From assembly GCA_017479705.1 (NCBI GenBank), contig JAFVCA010000015.1, positions 1 to 39,793 of the forward strand: 39,793 bases of DNA, given 5' to 3'. The translations under genes and the position numbers were made by a program. The notes under the pieces were generated by a model, which was given only the letters and a program-made list of their open reading frames with translations, was not told where the DNA came from and made no database searches. The stretch is from Bacteroidales bacterium (GTDB taxonomy: Bacteria > Bacteroidota > Bacteroidia > Bacteroidales > P3). Positions 617 through 37,030 of the stretch are shown here, piece by piece (the stretch's first letter is position 1; the number at the start of each line of letters is the position of its first letter).

Positions 617-1465
617 TTAAGCTGCTTTTACAAGCATCATATCGTCGTAGTTCAGTGCAATTCCGCTGACATGGTGACGATAGATTTTTGCGCCCTCAAA
701 TGGGTTGCCAATGGTCGGGTTTCGTCCCATCCAGTCGGCAAGCTCGACGATGGTTGACTTGCTACTGGAGAAGTACACGAATTTTGTCCCCACGAGACAT
801 TTCAGTACGTCCATATAGTCCGACAACTTCCAATAGTTGTCGCTTCTGTAGGTTCCGCAGTCGGTTGACAGATACGGCGGGTCGAGAATGAATATCACGT
901 CAGGCACCAGCCGGAACTGGTCGAACAGCCGACGATAGTCCATCGACACCACCTCGACACCCTCCAGATAGCCCTCCACGTTGTAGTCATCCTTGCGGAC
1001 ACGGTTGTAGAGCGTTTCCTTGCGGAACTCCTCGAAGTCGTGGGAATAGTTCATCGTGAAGTGGAGGTTGCTCGATATGGAGAACCAATCGACAAAGCCA
1101 GACTTGTTCCACTTCTCGACCTCGGCCACCACCTGCGACCGCACCGGCTCGTCGATGCGCATCTTGTGCGGTACGCTGGCCACGATGGGCCGCAGGGCGC
1201 GTAGCATTGCATTGGTGCGCCCGACGTTGGCCAGACGCTCGCTGTAATGGTCAAAATCGTTGTACACCACCCGGCAGTCCGGGCGTGCGCGTTTGATGGT
1301 GTGGCTCACAAGGCCGCTACCGCCGAATAAATCGACGAATACAGCCCCTTTCTTCTGTTCTTTGGCCATTTCCTCAATCTGGCGCACAAAACGCCGTTTC
1401 TGCCCCTGGAATGGAAGTGGGGCACTTACATACTTTTTCACTTGGTTAAGGTTTTTGTTAGACAT
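617..1465 (-). CDS. Dam-like (D12 class) DNA adenine N6-methyltransferase
   Basis: The 282-residue protein has the motif order of Dam-type enzymes: a PFQGQKRRF motif near residues 18-26, the AdoMet-binding DLFGGSG at 45-51 and the catalytic DPPY at 195-198. It should transfer a methyl group from AdoMet to adenine N6 in a short target site; the site cannot be read from sequence. The start is the ATG at 1465, which overlaps the end of the upstream hydroxymethylase-like gene by 8 bp and suggests translational coupling; a TTG nine bases earlier is an alternative. It is the last gene before the right end. In Mu that position holds the DNA-modification gene mom, so protection against restriction is a reasonable inferred role. 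Confidence 0.85.
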   Translation of the reverse strand: MSNKNLNQVKKYVSAPLPFQGQKRRFVRQIEEMAKEQKKGAVFVDLFGGSGLVSHTIKRARPDCRVVYNDFDHYSERLANVGRTNAMLRALRPIVASVPHKMRIDEPVRSQVVAEVEKWNKSGFVDWFSISSNLHFTMNYSHDFEEFRKETLYNRVRKDDYNVEGYLEGVEVVSMDYRRLFDQFRLVPDVIFILDPPYLSTDCGTYRSDNYWKLSDYMDVLKCLVGTKFVYFSSSKSTIVELADWMGRNPTIGNPFEGAKIYRHHVSGIALNYDDMMLVKAA

Positions 1466-2096
1466 TAAGTTCAAATTTCACACCTTCCTCGCCGTTGAGT
1501 AGGGCGCGAGTTTTCTCCAAATTATTCTCGTAGATGTGTACATTGCCCAGGAACAGCGTAATGCTGTGCAGGGGCAGTTCCACCTGCCTCGAAATCAAAT
1601 ACAGGTGGTATATGTCTGAGGGCAGCCCCAATGATGCGTCGCTGCTGCGCTGGTAGGCCGTCAACAACAGCCGTCCATCCTCAATCTGAAACTGCACCAG
1701 CGACAGGCAGGGTGCCTGATTGGTCTCAACGTTGGTTTCACCCAAGAACAGCACATAGTTCTTCGAGTTGCGTTTCTCGCAATTGATTCGCTCAATTAAC
1801 CTGGGCAGCTTCTCGAAATAGGTGGGATAGCTATTGACCAAAATCGGGCCACAGTAGTCCCACCACGATATGCCCGCCTCGCGGTAGGCCTCGGTGTTAC
1901 GCTCACCCCTGCAGAACAGTTCCAGCTCACTGCGTAGCTTCTTACGGGCTATCCCATGACTCTCGAAAATGTCGAGCAAGTCGCCCGCGTCCATCCGCAT
2001 CACCTCGTTGGTCAGATAGCGGATATTTCCCTTTTTGTTCCTTTGCTCACGCCCGTTTTTGAGGACGTTGTCGAGCATTGCATAATACTTATTCAT
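1458..2096 (-). CDS. Thymidylate synthase-family protein, probable dCMP hydroxymethylase type
   Basis: The 212 residues align with thymidylate synthase along most of the length. Visible counterparts are the Glu in ELELF (Glu57), the catalytic Cys in QAPC (Cys130), the phosphate-binding Arg and Asp in YQRSSD (Arg150, Asp153) and the HIY pair (His187, Tyr189). The residue that reads the base, Asn177 in the E. coli enzyme, is Asp161 here (GLPSDIY). Asp at this position is the hallmark of dCMP hydroxymethylases such as T4 gp42. The protein would then make 5-hydroxymethyl-dCMP from dCMP with methylene-tetrahydrofolate. The double-Arg loop before the catalytic Cys and the usual C-terminal extension are missing, so it may be divergent or have another substrate. 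It overlaps the methyltransferase gene. Confidence 0.7.
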   Translation of the reverse strand: MNKYYAMLDNVLKNGREQRNKKGNIRYLTNEVMRMDAGDLLDIFESHGIARKKLRSELELFCRGERNTEAYREAGISWWDYCGPILVNSYPTYFEKLPRLIERINCEKRNSKNYVLFLGETNVETNQAPCLSLVQFQIEDGRLLLTAYQRSSDASLGLPSDIYHLYLISRQVELPLHSITLFLGNVHIYENNLEKTRALLNGEEGVKFELNV

Positions 2097-2115: not shown

Positions 2116-2147
2116 TTTGGTCGGTTCAAAAAATATTCGTATTTTTG
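2116..2147 (+). promoter_or_regulatory. Bacteroidota-type promoter reading rightward into the 2152-2242 hairpin
   Basis: TTTG at 2116-2119 and TATTTTTG at 2140-2147 are separated by 20 bp, matching the -33 TTTG / -7 TAnnTTTG consensus of Bacteroides primary promoters. Transcription would begin near 2153, at the first base of the inverted repeat. The genes on both sides lie on the opposite strand, so this promoter does not serve them. Confidence 0.55.
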
Positions 2148-2151
2148 CAAT

Positions 2152-2242
2152 CGCTTAACTCGAAAATAACTATGCCCAAAGAGGCTGGAGAATTAGTCCC
2201 CAGTCGCCTCTTTGGGCATTATAGTTAAAATAGAGTTAAGCG
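2152..2242 (+). ncRNA. Long imperfect inverted repeat, candidate small hairpin RNA
   Basis: Two arms of about 38-42 bases pair over nearly their full length. The outer parts are CGCTTAACTC (2152-2161) with GAGTTAAGCG (2233-2242), and the perfect inner 12-bp parts are GCCCAAAGAGGC (2174-2185) with GCCTCTTTGGGC (2206-2217). A promoter starts exactly before the left arm, and a T-run follows at about 2265. The arms encode an 18-residue reading frame, MPKEAGELVPSRLFGHYS (2172-2228), which may be a by-product of the hairpin. It sits upstream of the modification genes on the other strand. It could be a regulatory RNA, a terminator for the minus-strand operon, or both. Confidence 0.4.
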
Positions 2243-2296
2243 GCTATTATTAACAGGCTGGGGGCTTTTTTATGCCCGCCCCCGAGGGCAATGGGC

Positions 2297-2758
2297 TCAC
2301 TCGCGCAGATAGGGTTCCACGTCGAAAGCATCCTTCTCAACCCATCCCTCGTCGAGGCACCTTTGGACATGGTTGCCGACGGCTTTCTGGAAGGCTGTCA
2401 GTTTGCTTGCCGATGTGAATTCGTAATAGACGGGGCTGCCGTCGGCGGCCTCGCCCAGCTTCAGGCGCACCGGGCATGTCATGCTGTTGCGGAACGTCAC
2501 CTGGTTCTCCATGGAGAGGTACACGGGGCAGCCCTCATAGACAAACCCGGTGAGGATGCTCTGCTGCACCCGCTCGTTGACCAACTCAACAAAGAGGCTG
2601 CGCACCTCGTCGGCTGTGGGCCGATGGTCGAAGTCGTGCTCCATCCACTCGGCGCCATCCTCGGTCTCGGTGATAGCCAGGCGTACACGCCAGGTTCCAC
2701 GGCGTGGGTTCAGGCACTCAATCAGTGCCACGTTTCTTGCTCCTTCTGCGCGTTTCAT
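2297..2758 (-). CDS. Unknown phage protein, possible tail-fibre accessory
   Basis: This 153-residue acidic protein is not recognised with confidence. It begins MKRAEGARNVALIECLNPRR and ends KAVGNHVQRCLDEGWVEKD followed by an acidic tail. The C-terminal part resembles loosely the small proteins that follow tail-fibre genes and help fibre assembly (DUF4376-like), but no catalytic motif is visible. The start ATG is 2 bp from the stop of the upstream gene (2761), so the two are co-transcribed and probably co-translated. It is the last gene before the hairpin region. It could equally be a structural protein. Confidence 0.6.
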   Translation of the reverse strand: MKRAEGARNVALIECLNPRRGTWRVRLAITETEDGAEWMEHDFDHRPTADEVRSLFVELVNERVQQSILTGFVYEGCPVYLSMENQVTFRNSMTCPVRLKLGEAADGSPVYYEFTSASKLTAFQKAVGNHVQRCLDEGWVEKDAFDVEPYLRE

Positions 2759-2760
2759 GT

Positions 2761-3240
2761 TTAGGTGAATATATATTTGGTTTTACCTTTGCCGAAGGTC
2801 TCGGCCTTGATTGTCGTCTCGAATGGGAAGCCGTCCGGCACCTCCTTGATTTGCTCCAGGATGTTGCGCATCTCGACAGACGATGTGAAGAATTTGTACG
2901 GTTCGCCGCTCTTTTCGATGGCCACCAGTGTGCGGTCGTCGCCTTGGTCGGTCTTGATGCCGGTCTCGTAGTCTTTGACCACGATGGGCAGGTTCACTAG
3001 CTCGCGGATGCTGATACTCGGTCCTGGGAAGCGTTTCTTCCCGTCTGCGGGCGCATAGCTCACGCCCAAATCTTTGAAACTTTTCATTTCTTTACCTGTT
3101 AATTGATAGAATAAGTTATTACAATCGGCGTGCTTGGCCATCCCGTAGAACGAGGCGGTCAGCACGTCACGTCTTTTTCTTGATTTGACCTCGGCCATCT
3201 TGCGCGCCATCTTCTGTTTGATACGCTTGCGCAGCTCCAC
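2761..3240 (-). CDS. Unknown phage protein with basic N-terminus
   Basis: The frame encodes 159 residues from a GTG at 3240. The first 25 residues are strongly basic (RKRIKQKMARKMAEVKSRKRR), and the rest is mixed alpha/beta in appearance with no known motif. The open frame extends upstream of the GTG for about 35 more codons with protein-like content (APLVIITERYRKPLAFFIYD) but no ATG, so the true start is uncertain. It lies downstream of the 3398-3431 hairpin and is tightly linked to the 2297-2758 gene. The function is not known; the position suggests a tail-fibre or morphogenesis accessory. Confidence 0.55.
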   Translation of the reverse strand: MELRKRIKQKMARKMAEVKSRKRRDVLTASFYGMAKHADCNNLFYQLTGKEMKSFKDLGVSYAPADGKKRFPGPSISIRELVNLPIVVKDYETGIKTDQGDDRTLVAIEKSGEPYKFFTSSVEMRNILEQIKEVPDGFPFETTIKAETFGKGKTKYIFT

Positions 3241-3397
3241 GTGGTCGCCGTCGTATATGAAGAAAGCCAGTGGCTTTCGATAGCGTTCCGTAATGATGAC
3301 GAGCGGAGCGAAGGCAAGCGGAGAACAAGAAAGCCGAGGAAGTCAATATATTGGCTGCAATGATATTGCAGCATACATAACAAACATGTGGGAAATG

Positions 3398-11088: not shown

Positions 11089-11295
11089 CTATGGCTCGCC
11101 TATATATTGGAAAATGAGTTGCACCTGTCGTGGTGTGAGCCTCTTTTGAGTGGGGCGATAGTTGGCTTGTTTAAGAGCCTGCCACAAATCGGGATTGTGG
11201 CGCAGTTCACGATTCAACAGGCGGGCTGCGGAGGTTGGCGACACGTCGGGGAAATAGGCGTGTGCAAGGTCGTACTTGAAAAGATAACTAGTCAT
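11089..11295 (-). CDS. DUF4248-type small protein
   Basis: The 68-residue protein (starts MTSYLFKYDLAHAYFPDVSP, ends LTPRQVQLIFQYIGEP) has the 'K.dLA..YFPd.sp..A...L...l..n..l...L...gY....r.lTp.QV..I...lGeP' pattern of DUF4248. These small basic proteins are common in Bacteroidota mobile elements and look like helix-turn-helix DNA-binding proteins. It is the last gene of the late tail block, after the LysM-like gene, and precedes the cargo promoter. A regulatory role is likely but the target is unknown. Confidence 0.7.
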   Translation of the reverse strand: MTSYLFKYDLAHAYFPDVSPTSAARLLNRELRHNPDLWQALKQANYRPTQKRLTPRQVQLIFQYIGEP

Positions 11296-11306
11296 GGTCT
11301 ATTTGG

Positions 11307-11666
11307 TTAATGATTGATATTCAGACAATTGCTTGTTTTTATGGTGTTTTGTGGATATTTCTGATTTTCAGGATGTTGTAAAGATTCAAAAGAAGGCACA
11401 AAGAACCCACGAAGAAGGCACATATAAGGCATAGGTACTATGCGGTCGCGTCTGGGCGTTCCGTCGGTGGCGGGTCTGGCGTCGCTGGCGGCCATCTCCG
11501 CCGCCGTGTCGCGGTCGCCGCCGTCGGTCGGCACGTCAAGCTCGGCATTGCCGGGGATGTCGGTCAACCCGAAGCCGCTGCGCACGGCTATGTCCCATGC
11601 CAGCTCCGCGCTGCCGCACACCTGCGCCGCCACGTCTATCAGTGTCTGTCCCTGCCCGGCTCTCAT
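11307..11666 (-). CDS. LysM-like baseplate protein with atypical C-terminus
   Basis: Residues 5-45 (GQTLIDVAAQVCGSAELAWD, then LTDIPGNAELDVP) form a LysM-like module like those of small baseplate proteins (tail protein X type) in contractile phages. It overlaps the upstream fibre gene by 4 bp. After residue about 75 the sequence becomes low-complexity and then AT-rich (PMPYMCLLRGFFVPSFESL...), unlike the conserved start. A frameshift or read-through into non-coding DNA may have replaced the normal end. A role in joining baseplate and tube is inferred from the family. Confidence 0.6.
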   Translation of the reverse strand: MRAGQGQTLIDVAAQVCGSAELAWDIAVRSGFGLTDIPGNAELDVPTDGGDRDTAAEMAASDARPATDGTPRRDRIVPMPYMCLLRGFFVPSFESLQHPENQKYPQNTIKTSNCLNINH

Positions 11667-32714: not shown

Positions 32715-33017
32715 TTAGAAGTTGATATAAATGATTACTTTCTTTTTCCAGATGGCGTATTCGTGCTCTATCCTGGCCCCACGGCTCTGCGGCCAGTCGG
32801 GTAGCATGGCGATAAAGCCACACTTGCGCAGCATCCACAAGTCTTTCAGCATACACAGCCACCACGGCCACTTCTGGTTGCACTCCTTCGCCGGGTTCAC
32901 AATGTACCAGTAGTTCCAGCCCTGCTCTATAAGGTACTGCTCCGCCTTGCGGAACTTCGCCTCAAAATTCGGGTCGCCTGTAATCTTTCCCGATATGTAG
33001 ATGCTCTTGTATTTCAT
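32715..33017 (-). CDS. DUF4406 family protein, nucleoside deoxyribosyltransferase-like
   Basis: The 100-residue protein (MKYKSIYISGKITGDPNFEA, then KFRKAEQYLIEQGWNYWYIV, NPAKECNQKWPWWLCMLKDL, RGARIEHEYAIWKKKVIIYI) is a DUF4406 protein. The family is a short relative of nucleoside 2-deoxyribosyltransferases and may act on nucleotides. The SGKIT and E-H-E-Y-A motifs are present. It overlaps the Gp16 gene end by 4 bp. In a phage with a nucleotide-modifying enzyme this is a possible helper, but the link is speculative. Confidence 0.75.
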   Translation of the reverse strand: MKYKSIYISGKITGDPNFEAKFRKAEQYLIEQGWNYWYIVNPAKECNQKWPWWLCMLKDLWMLRKCGFIAMLPDWPQSRGARIEHEYAIWKKKVIIYINF

Positions 33018-34152: not shown

Positions 34153-35004
34153 TTATCTCGCTTTTCTACTGTTGGCAAAAACCAGTTGGCGCACCCTCCG
34201 CAGGTCGCCCTCCGCACTCCTGGCGATATCCTCTATCACCGCTTCGTCTGTCAGCCCGTTGGCCTCGCACACGGCTTTCACATCGTCGTAGTCGGCTCTG
34301 TCAAGCTCCACGCAACGGCTGCCCAGTCGGCTCCATATCTCGGGGTAACCCTTGCGCTGGTACTTCAAGCCCATACGGAACCGCTTCTCTATGTAGTCCG
34401 TCGACAGCAGCACCATCCCGCACTGGTCCTCCAGCCGGTTGTAGAGGGTGATAAAGAAGCTCCACACGTTGTCGCCCAGTTTGTCGAACTCGTCGAATAT
34501 CAGCAGCGGTCTGTCCTTCATACCCAGCACACGGCAAGCCAATGCAAGACGCTCTCTCTTGGTCAGCCCGTCGGCTTTCTCGCCCATCGCGCGCAGCAGC
34601 TCCTCCACAAAGTCGTTCTTGCTCCAGAACTCGTCGCACATCAGGCGGTACACGTTTCTATGTCCGGCTTCGTACTCCTTGGCGGCATACGTCTTGCCGC
34701 TGCCCGCTGGGGCCGTCAGGCTCATCACCCTGGCCTCTTCCTGTGCTGCCTGCAGCAGTGCGTGCACCTGCTGGTAGGTGGCCGTCTCGGCGGTGTTCCA
34801 CGCCTTGGTACCGTACCCGATAGCCTTGGCCACCTTGCGCCACATTTCGTCGCTGATGTGCTCCCAGTTCCCGGCTGCCATCTGGCTGAGGGTTGCAGAG
34901 CTCACGCCCTTGATGCTGTTCGCAGCCTTGTTCTGGCCGCCTTTCTGTTCTGTGTAGGCTCTCAAGGCCTCCACAATGCCGTTTTTGTCAATTCTCTGTG
35001 TCAT
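34153..35004 (-). CDS. MuB-type AAA+ transposition ATPase
   Basis: The 283-residue protein has an N-terminal HTH (QNKAANSIKGVSSATLSQMA), Walker A APAGSGKTY (residues 98-106) and Walker B LLIFDEFDKL (167-176). This is the MuB/IstB-like arrangement. MuB binds DNA non-specifically, picks the target and activates MuA. It starts 34 bp after the transposase stop. Target immunity normally depends on this protein. Confidence 0.9.
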   Translation of the reverse strand: MTQRIDKNGIVEALRAYTEQKGGQNKAANSIKGVSSATLSQMAAGNWEHISDEMWRKVAKAIGYGTKAWNTAETATYQQVHALLQAAQEEARVMSLTAPAGSGKTYAAKEYEAGHRNVYRLMCDEFWSKNDFVEELLRAMGEKADGLTKRERLALACRVLGMKDRPLLIFDEFDKLGDNVWSFFITLYNRLEDQCGMVLLSTDYIEKRFRMGLKYQRKGYPEIWSRLGSRCVELDRADYDDVKAVCEANGLTDEAVIEDIARSAEGDLRRVRQLVFANSRKAR

Positions 35005-35038: not shown

Positions 35039-37030
35039 TTAAAGCCTGTCCCAGATGTCGGCCATCTCCCTCGCCTTGGCGTGGCTCTCGCCCACCTCTT
35101 CGTATGCCACCTCCTCCACCAGCGACTTTTGCGCCTTCCGCTTGTTGTCCTTGTGCTGTCCCTTGCTGTCGGTCAGCAGCAGGGCGCTCATCGGGCTCTC
35201 CAGCTGCGCCCTTGTCACGAACTCACGCGCGCGGTCTTGCACCTCGCATACGTGCTCAGTCACCCGCTCAGTCAGCTGGGCGTTGAACTGCCGGTACTCC
35301 GTCAGTGCCTTCCAGTCCTGCTCTTCATAGTCCACCAGCGCCATCGGCACCTTCTTTTTGGCTTCCACCATATAGCGGAGCCTTCCGTCCTCGCTCACCG
35401 CCAACGCCTGGTTCATATCGCCCAGGTCGTAGCGCAGCGTCCAACGCTCGCCCCTGTGTTCGCGCATCTCTATGTCGAAACTGTCGAACTTGTATTCCAC
35501 CCCGTCCCTTATCAGCTTGAGGCCGTTAGGCGTGAGCATATTGCCCTTGCCCGTCTCTCCGAAGGCCAGCAGGTACTCGCACATATTCAGCTCGCGGTGG
35601 AACCGGGCGTCCCCCTGCTGCCACGCCTCGCGCACAGCTGCTATCTTACGGCTGCGCTCTATCTCGATAATCTTGCCAATCTGCTGCTCCAGCCCCTCTC
35701 TGTCGGGGAACTGGTACTTGTGGGCGTTTAGCCACTCGTCGTTGGCCTGCGTCTTGGCGGTGATATTGTGGCCGCCGTTGTTCGTCAGCGCCCACAGGTA
35801 CTCGCTCTCCAGATAGGCAAAGTAGCGTTCTATCGGCTTCGCCTTGGCATTGCCCACCGAGGCAGGGGTTACGTATTTGGCCAGCGCGCCATACTTCGGA
35901 GTCATCGCCTTCAGCGAGTAGTGGTCGCTCTGGATCTGCCACGGCGCATAGTGGCCGCCCAGCACCTCCCGCGTATGGTGCACCGCGTTCTGCAGGGCAG
36001 CGGTAATCAGCTCCGCCGTCTCCTGTTCCCCGATGGCGTAGCCTATCGGGTAGTCGTTCATCACGTCCACCACTATCTCCACCACCAAGCGGTGCCAGTA
36101 GTTCACACCCCTTGCGTCGCGGTCCTGGTAGTAAAGCTCCGCGGTCCAGCCGTCGAGGCTCCACATCTTCATCGGCATATCCGGGCGTTCTCTGTCCACC
36201 TGCATCGTTATCGTGTTCGCGTATGTCCGCTTGCCCTCTCTCGAGGCTGTCAGCATCGTCGCGTTCTTTGTCCTTATCTCCTGAACCCTGCGGCGGTCTA
36301 TCTTCACGCCCAGCGTCTCGGCAGCCTTCGCCACCTGGGCGTCGTTCAGCTTCGCGCCCGAGGCTATCAGGGCCTCCACCACGGCGTTCACGTCAACGCT
36401 CCGCGCCTTGTGGTTGCTCTCCTTGCCAGTCAAGCCGTGCACCAGCACCTCGTAGCCGTGCAGCTGGTAGTCGTTGAACTTCTTACGAAGACGGTCGCCA
36501 CTCGTGGGCAGACTGTTCGGCCACTCCACCAGCTGCTGGTCTATCTCGTTGGCCAATGCCTCAAACTCCCTCTTCACACTCATCTTCAACCGCCCCATCT
36601 CGGCAGCTCGCCGCTTCTCTTCCAGCAGCTCGCCTATGGCATCCAGTATCTTCGCACCGTTCCACAGCTCCGTCACCTTCTCGGGCTTCAGCATCCTGCC
36701 GTCCTTGCCGGTCACCTGGCTGTAGTACTCATAGGCCTGGGTATCCAGCAGCTGCTGCTCACGCCTCAGCAGGATGCTCCGCAGAAGGCTCTCACGGCTC
36801 ATCTGCGCAGGGTCGCAGCCTAATGCCTCTATCACCCGAGCCTTCAGCTTTGTGCCCATACTCTGCCAGTCTATCAGTGCCGTCCGGCCATTACCGCCAC
36901 GACGCAGACTGCGGATGTGGCCACGAGTGAGGCTGCTGTTATAGTTAGCTTGGCCGAGGGCGTTTGCCAACCAACCACCGTTTACACCCACGTGGCCATT
37001 GTACCGTTCTATGATTTTCGTGCCTTCCAT
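35039..37030 (-). CDS. MuA-type DDE transposase
   Basis: The 663-residue protein has the size of MuA (663 residues in Mu). An N-terminal DNA-binding half is followed by the RNase H-like core with Asp293 in SLDGW, Asp369 in QSDHY and Glu401 in PIERYF, a DDE triad, and a C-terminal part rich in charged residues. It should cut both phage ends and join them to target DNA; the binding boxes near both ends carry the likely sites. It lies first among the large early genes, with MuB directly after. Confidence 0.93.
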   Translation of the reverse strand: MEGTKIIERYNGHVGVNGGWLANALGQANYNSSLTRGHIRSLRRGGNGRTALIDWQSMGTKLKARVIEALGCDPAQMSRESLLRSILLRREQQLLDTQAYEYYSQVTGKDGRMLKPEKVTELWNGAKILDAIGELLEEKRRAAEMGRLKMSVKREFEALANEIDQQLVEWPNSLPTSGDRLRKKFNDYQLHGYEVLVHGLTGKESNHKARSVDVNAVVEALIASGAKLNDAQVAKAAETLGVKIDRRRVQEIRTKNATMLTASREGKRTYANTITMQVDRERPDMPMKMWSLDGWTAELYYQDRDARGVNYWHRLVVEIVVDVMNDYPIGYAIGEQETAELITAALQNAVHHTREVLGGHYAPWQIQSDHYSLKAMTPKYGALAKYVTPASVGNAKAKPIERYFAYLESEYLWALTNNGGHNITAKTQANDEWLNAHKYQFPDREGLEQQIGKIIEIERSRKIAAVREAWQQGDARFHRELNMCEYLLAFGETGKGNMLTPNGLKLIRDGVEYKFDSFDIEMREHRGERWTLRYDLGDMNQALAVSEDGRLRYMVEAKKKVPMALVDYEEQDWKALTEYRQFNAQLTERVTEHVCEVQDRAREFVTRAQLESPMSALLLTDSKGQHKDNKRKAQKSLVEEVAYEEVGESHAKAREMADIWDRL

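Follow-up and report, generated by a model that had tools for sequence, protein, structure and literature searches.

The question raised by this locus is which nucleotide a phage-borne protein of the thymidylate synthase (TS) superfamily acts on, and what product it makes. The window, by which we mean the whole stretch of DNA analyzed here, comprises 39,793 nucleotides of contig JAFVCA010000015.1 (forward strand) from a Bacteroidales bacterium (assembly GCA_017479705.1). The TS-like open reading frame at 1458 to 2096 (minus strand) is intact, starts with ATG, and encodes 212 amino acids that match the Pfam model PF00303 (E 1.3e-21; 77.3 bits against a cut-off of 24.3) and PHROG 160 (E 2.1e-29). 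The Pfam match and the catalytic Cys130 place the protein in the TS superfamily, and the nearest solved structures found by phmmer are thymidylate synthases, the best being 6auj (E 1.1e-14). Because the host genome encodes its own TS in an open frame of 266 amino acids, dTMP supply is not an obvious role for the phage gene.

The initial annotation had described a short protein that keeps the catalytic Cys, a YQRSSD motif and an HIY pair but lacks the double-Arg loop, and each of these features was recovered. Cys130 (codon 1707 to 1709, minus strand) corresponds, by phmmer, MAFFT and the residue count, to Cys146 of E. coli ThyA and Cys148 of T4 gp42; YQRSSD occupies residues 148 to 153, and the other motif is H187-I188-Y189. 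The 212-residue protein ends approximately 35 residues before the end of ThyA, and no alignment register restores the Arg pair to the loop.

Asp161 occupies the base-reading position

It had also been proposed that Asp161 stands where TS enzymes carry the Asn that reads the base, and alignments with E. coli ThyA and T4 gp42 bore this out. The codon of Asp161 (1614 to 1616, minus strand) lies opposite ThyA Asn177 and T4 gp42 Asp179: the segment GLPSD(161)I aligns with GLPFN(177)I of ThyA in several MAFFT sets and in hhalign, which matched the TS-like family to TS with a probability of 98.9 (E 1.3e-17). With other TS proteins of solved structure, phmmer and a profile hmmsearch both paired Asp161 with the equivalent Asn.

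Asp161 was kept in all of the 163 related loci, a count that leaves the window aside, and Glu57, Trp79, Gln127, Cys130, Leu131, Arg150, Ser151, Asp153, His187 and Tyr189 were also invariant. The 163 loci amount to 133 distinct readings, with some genomes present in two collections (L084 and L110, for example, have identical upstream sequence). Relatives were retrieved from IMG/VR with six peptides, one of which contains Asp161, and from GTDB with two peptides, neither containing Asp161 and both spanning Cys130/Leu131 and Arg150 to Asp153. Some search patterns, namely those of the family alignment and the context count, required or favored Asp, whereas the residue count over the 163 loci is unbiased. 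The family alignment omits L067 (length 196) and L086, for which no start codon was found, and the 36 rows of alignment A2 were hand-picked. When the window gene was compared with those of L003 and L112, pN/pS was 0.032/0.586 and 0.093/0.637, respectively, and pN was much lower than pS in each of the four pairs compared. The invariance of Asp161 together with the low pN makes it very likely that the TS-like gene of the window is functional, and we conclude from the compared sequences that Asp161 is neither a sequencing error nor an accident of drift.

In a table of 30 aligned proteins, Asn is found at position 177 (ThyA numbering) in 16 TS rows, which include E. coli ThyA and the host ThyA, and Asp is found in the eight rows of the TS-like family and in T4 gp42, Aes144 gp42, Clock, PEi20, KF-1 and GodonK. 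The Asn177 of true thymidylate synthases is thus replaced in the TS-like family, with Asp161 in 163 of 163 loci. Substitution of Asn177 with Asp switches TS from dUMP to dCMP, no two positions distinguish the TS homologues of modified contigs from those of unmodified ones better than 177 and 147, and Asp at 177 marks modified cytosine (PMC8670742). That the active site of the TS-like family reads cytosine is well supported by the invariance of Asp161 combined with the reported effect of the Asn177Asp change (PMC8670742).

Residues that bear on the product

In the 30-row table, every one of the 16 Asn177 rows, like KF-1, carries Leu at position 143, where T4 gp42, Aes144, Clock, PEi20 and GodonK have Asp or Glu and all eight family rows have Gln. 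The Gln in question, Gln127, stands at the place of ThyA Leu143 and T4 Asp145 in 163 of 163 loci; it is polar but, unlike the residue of T4 gp42, not acidic. Position 147 is His in 15 of the 16 Asn177 rows (Val in Enterococcus phage CCS1), Thr in T4 gp42, Aes144, Clock, PEi20 and GodonK, and Leu in the window family. According to phmmer and MAFFT, the TS-like protein lacks the C-terminal tail with which true TS closes off the folate site. T4 dCH likewise differs from TS in the missing tail, in having Val85 for Trp83, and in having Asp145 for Leu143; its activity is harmed by changing Asp145, Ser94 or Tyr96, and the loss of the tail and position 143 are tied to hydroxymethylation (PMC6400193). 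At the Trp83 place, the TS-like protein has Cys82 in the ungapped register after Trp79, and the larger MAFFT sets have a gap there. The absent tail and the change of Leu143 to Gln suggest that the product of the TS-like enzyme is a hydroxymethyl rather than a methyl nucleotide. Of the original proposal that 5-hydroxymethylcytosine is made, therefore, the cytosine-reading site is well supported and the hydroxymethyl group moderately so.

The same residues bear on an alternative in which cytosine is read but hydride transfer is retained, so that the enzyme would be a dCMP methylase with 5-methyl-dCMP as its product. An Asn177Asp TS can indeed yield 5m-dCMP (PMC8670742, citing Graves, Hardy and Nalivaika, Liu and Santi); however, the tail that seals TS is absent and Leu143 is Gln (PMC6400193), and we think that this alternative is unlikely. 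A TS homologue in Edwardsiella phage KF-1 (L192, NC_019420.1) has Asp177 with otherwise TS-like residues and adjoins genes annotated as nucleotide pyrophosphohydrolase and dCMP deaminase; it is possibly a 5-methyl-dCMP synthase. The combination of residues in KF-1 shows that the product cannot be deduced from Asp177 alone.

Two features do not suit a dCMP hydroxymethylase: the Arg pair is missing, and in most alignments the catalytic Tyr has no counterpart. The Arg126/Arg127 pair, which in enzymes of the T4 gp42 type binds phosphate across the dimer, has no equivalent in any register of the TS-like family. Its place is taken by Ser111-Lys112 in a larger MAFFT set and hhalign or by Tyr114-Val115 in phmmer and a six-row MAFFT alignment, and K112-N113-Y114, which sits in the former double-Arg loop, is invariant in 163 of 163 loci. 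The place of the catalytic Tyr (Tyr94/Tyr96) is occupied by Leu86 according to phmmer, the larger MAFFT sets and hhalign, and by Tyr93 only in the six-row MAFFT alignment; Tyr90 and Tyr93 are both invariant across the 163 loci. One could envision from the lost Arg pair, the Leu at the Tyr94 place in most alignments, the shortened fold and the frequent methyltransferase neighbor that the protein binds a cytosine nucleotide with a TS fold but performs no one-carbon chemistry, serving instead as a regulator or as a partner of the methyltransferase. The invariance of Cys130, Glu57, Asp153 and the base-reading Asp nevertheless argues against this scenario, and we consider it improbable.

A further scenario is that the enzyme resembles MilA, the CMP hydroxymethylase of mildiomycin, and acts on the ribonucleotide, so that its product would serve to modify a nucleoside or RNA and not DNA. 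MilA also has Asp at the base-reading place, and its Lys133' lies at Arg126' (PMC5175136); the conserved Lys112 of the TS-like family falls on one of the Arg pair in a larger MAFFT alignment and in the hhalign alignment, so that both have a Lys in the phosphate loop, the exact place being uncertain. The window phage, moreover, encodes a DUF4406 protein that is nucleoside 2-deoxyribosyltransferase-like by PHROG. However, Lys112 falls on Arg127 rather than Arg126 in both alignments, and a DUF4406 protein is present in only six of 20 TS-bearing viral records of relatives. Furthermore, Ser at ThyA position 167 goes with deoxyribose and Ala with ribose; MilA has Ala176 and a long C-terminal domain, and its A176S substitution shifts it to dCMP (PMC5175136). 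The window family lacks that domain, and Ser151, at the ThyA Ser167 place, is invariant in 163 of 163 loci, leaving no Ala of the MilA type. These points make a CMP enzyme quite doubtful.

That the gene encodes an ordinary thymidylate synthase supplying dTMP in lytic growth, as the database names in p00 and its relatives and the nearest solved structures would have it, is highly improbable in view of the Asp161 of all 163 loci, the missing tail, the Leu at 147, the Gln at 143 and the presence of a host TS. Taken together, the loss of the tail, Ser151, the polar residue at 143 and Asp161 favor a dCMP hydroxymethylase.

Relationship to known enzymes

In a free tree, the TS-like family formed one clade (100/99) on the TS side with KF-1 and away from T4 gp42; the tree has very long branches and an unsettled bootstrap, its eight family rows were hand-picked, and ThyA_L094 was omitted. 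Forcing the clade to group with five T4-like rows cost 3.1 log units and was not rejected (AU p 0.301), and for this reason we dropped the claim that the Asp arose independently. In its residues the window enzyme would appear to work most like a dCMP hydroxymethylase, with membership in the T4 gp42 family neither supported nor excluded. It shares with T4 gp42 the TS fold, the catalytic Cys, the base-reading Asp, Glu57 (Glu60 in T4, Glu58 in ThyA), the lack of a C-terminal tail and a polar residue at 143, at an identity of 15% in the six-row MAFFT alignment, but differs in having Leu rather than Thr at 147, Gln rather than Asp at 143, and no Arg pair. The likeness to E. coli ThyA consists of the fold and most of the ribose-binding and catalytic residues, and solved TS proteins are the closest by sequence, whereas the family has Asp for Asn177, Leu for His147 and Gln for Leu143, and is without the C-terminal 35 or so residues and Arg126/127.

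The direct homologue among known phages is the "thymidylate synthase" DAC76694.1 of the hankyphage (Bacteroides phage p00, BK010646.1), which is 73.6% identical over 212 residues and likewise has a D12 methyltransferase neighbor. The two phages are otherwise distant (23% identity for MuA, 35% for terminase, 43% for MuB), and p00, unlike the window phage, has a full-length reverse transcriptase (RT) and a Mor-like gene. The word "thymidylate" does not occur in the main texts of two hankyphage papers (PMC12135933, PMC6199706), and our literature search returned no paper combining Bacteroides, phage, hydroxymethylcytosine and thymidylate synthase.

Distribution among temperate phages of Bacteroidales

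Relatives of the TS-like protein numbered 222 in IMG/VR viral contigs and 260 in contigs of GTDB species genomes, and the best 80 of each were retained (identity 70-97%). By title, nearly all of the best 80 of the 260 genome relatives are Bacteroidales, with Bacteroides, Phocaeicola, Prevotella and genera split off from it, Muribaculaceae, Alistipes, Parabacteroides and others represented. In an even sample of 198 Bacteroidales genomes, the gene was found in four at E 1e-40, the window's own genome included. Among named phages, 21 records (p00 hankyphage and its kin) are 72.6-75.9% identical and the next listed record is 28.6% identical; all 19 of the 21 that are annotated say thymidylate synthase.

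The phage had been described as transposable, which holds for the window itself: a MuB-like transposition ATPase (34153 to 35004, minus strand; PHROG 296, E 4.6e-54) and a MuA-like transposase (35039 to 37030, minus strand; PHROG 310, E 9.9e-28) were found. The description does not extend to all relatives, some of which are in integrase records with no MuB match. In 20 hand-picked viral records, which may be fragments, MuB was present in 13, a tyrosine integrase without MuB in five (L009, L013, L037, L053 and L062), and neither was found in two (L003 and L042). Since five of the 20 records have an integrase without MuB, the TS-like enzyme is not confined to phages that transpose, and an obligatory link to transposition was dropped.

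In L086 (G029) the TS-like gene is broken by an in-frame stop, in L087 (G016) it is in fragments with in-frame stops, and in L134, which may be the same genome as L086, it was matched as two tblastn pieces. We interpret these broken copies as decay of the cassette in some prophages.

Neighboring genes

The open reading frame of a predicted D12-class DNA methyltransferase with a DPPY motif (617 to 1474, minus strand; PF02086, E 7.2e-10; PHROG 56, E 1.1e-28) overlaps the stop of the TS-like gene in the window. A D12 methyltransferase of one similarity cluster lies near the TS-like gene in 128 of 160 loci (163 were tried, and L113, L134 and L187 were left out for want of a match to the search pattern). 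These 128 loci contain 130 such reading frames, all encoded on the strand of the TS-like gene, which they follow in 76 cases and precede in 54. When only the 123 loci flanked by 1 kb or more on each side are counted, the methyltransferase is present in 101, in 100 of them with a gap of less than 300 bp; the cluster is absent from the other 22, one of which (L055) has another DPPY reading frame. L012, whose flank is too short for the 123-locus count, has a D12 enzyme outside the cluster (PF02086, E 3.9e-21). Because the pair survives reversal of gene order, a shared role of the TS-like enzyme and the D12 methyltransferase is suggested.

Mor-like genes lie upstream in 105 and an RT in 86 of the 160 loci. 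With at least 2.9 kb of upstream sequence available, the RT was present in only 76 of 133 loci, and the idea that the TS-like gene is obligatorily linked to a diversity-generating retroelement (DGR) was dropped. In the window, a DUF4376-like protein, which often adjoins the RT in relatives, is encoded at 2297 to 2758 (minus strand; PHROG 19239, E 7.9e-35). The C-terminal part of a DGR RT, corresponding to p00 residues 242-434, follows at 2764 to 3336 (minus strand), and the N-terminal part of the p00 RT had no tblastn match within the window. The DGR of the window phage thus looks degraded. A full-length RT copy is present in the close relative L003. Identity between the window and p00 is 74% for the TS-like protein, 77% for the RT fragment, 47% for the methyltransferase and 43% for the DUF4376 protein.

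Pfam searches of 48 window translations recognized no MazG, dCTPase, deoxynucleotide kinase, glycosyltransferase or carbamoyltransferase, and P-loop matches were of the AAA type only, in the MuB-like protein and a RadA-like protein. No such pool or sugar-transfer enzymes were recognized among nine reading frames of the left half of p00, and MazG was found in none of the 20 hand-picked records of relatives. Cytidylate kinase was not found in the host assembly, which is itself 75% complete, and we draw no conclusion from this. A MazG reading of 32715 to 33017 (minus strand), given by one of four PHROG hits (phrog_12019, E 1.5e-6), was rejected because Pfam gives DUF4406 and because the records of relatives lack MazG. 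This gene, flanked by a DUF3164 gene and by one with weak similarity to GemA, encodes the DUF4406 protein mentioned above (PF14359, E 8.1e-18; best PHROG, a nucleoside 2-deoxyribosyltransferase family), for which no match was found in p00.

A candidate structured RNA divergent from the TS-like gene

Folding and a covariance model identified a candidate structured non-coding RNA at 2147 to 2265 (plus strand), divergent from the TS-like gene. The segment folds as a long hairpin, with a z of −5.9 for 2150-2275 on the plus strand, and the minus strand of this region folds at least as well (z −7.8). The candidate is preceded by TTTG-N20-TATTTTTG at 2116-2147, which we take to fit the Bacteroidetes promoter consensus.

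The covariance model, built from nine sequences, matched 80 of 100 sources hand-picked from 217 loci (E <1e-3); the matches lie on the other strand from the TS-like or Mor-like gene. The match in p00 lies between the DUF4376 and Mor-like genes (L103, 19527-19657, minus strand) and that in L209 at 11238-11366 (minus strand). The 20 sources without a match include L005, L009, L037, L055, L062 and the left half of p00. In a second search, in which most of the sources were earlier matches, 65 of 66 were matched; L108 was unmatched though its TS-like locus is 97% identical. The matches numbered 67, two of them on the opposite strand. In the 63 distinct rows of the alignment, which was fitted to the model so that pair counts are inflated, 94.6% of pair cells are standard pairs, compared with 37-45% when the partners are slid. 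Covariation is very strong: both sides have changed in 27 of the 29 pairs (610 such cells), and none of 500 shuffles reached any of the five measures. By eye, a C-rich loop is complementary to a G-rich 3' tail that leads into a U-run, and compensating letters are found in L146.

Rfam gave no match at the gathering score, the best sub-threshold score being 22.8 bits against 43. A conserved 17-mer of the RNA was found in four genomes among 61 relatives, which are also the four with a near-complete match to the TS-like protein. Under stricter filters, the model matched one of the 198 Bacteroidales genomes, the window's own; three others hold the TS-like gene.

Discussion

We propose, giving this reading an even chance of being correct, that the TS-like gene encodes a diverged cytosine-nucleotide hydroxymethylase, in the likeliest case converting dCMP to 5-hydroxymethyl-dCMP, and that it belongs to a partial modification moron of Bacteroidales temperate phages. 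Cys130 would attack C6 of cytosine, and Asp161 would read and protonate N3 of the presumed substrate, with the deoxyribose bound by Ser151, His187 and Tyr189 and with methylene-tetrahydrofolate as the one-carbon donor. Since the protein has neither the lid that TS forms at its C terminus nor the hydrophobic wall, the reaction would be completed by water instead of hydride, yielding 5-hydroxymethyl-dCMP.

Activation of 5-hydroxymethyl-dCMP would then fall to host kinases, and because of this dependence incorporation would probably be partial, reaching both phage DNA and newly made host DNA. T4 requires its own dCTPase and hm-dCMP kinase. Unlike T4, the window phage has no recognized dCTPase, kinase or glucosyltransferase, and since the dCTPase and kinase are the enzymes that T4 must provide for itself, full replacement of cytosine by the window phage is unlikely; a partial mark or another use of the product is more likely. 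Marking of host DNA is what we infer from the proposed route.

A broader and more tentative hypothesis, which we would not expect to hold in every part, joins these observations: phages akin to the hankyphage would carry a two-gene moron, consisting of a 5-hydroxymethyl-dCMP pool enzyme and a D12 methyltransferase, that is kept as a pair while its order shuffles and that is governed from a divergent promoter region from which the structured RNA is also made. As these phages rely on the replication of the host and no dCTPase or kinase of theirs was recognized, the mark would be partial and would extend to host DNA. In phage Mu, the mom region likewise provides a transposable phage with a modification gene at its right end; Mom acts on adenine and is not known to be related to TS.

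If modified cytosine is made, it would represent an overlooked DNA modification in a known group of gut phages, occurring in temperate phages that share a nucleotide pool with a living host, and it would also explain why a DNA methyltransferase gene so often lies beside the TS-like gene. Hankyphage lysogens are available in culture (PMC12135933), which makes the proposal open to direct testing. The virions of the hankyphage strain studied there package their genome incompletely (PMC12135933).
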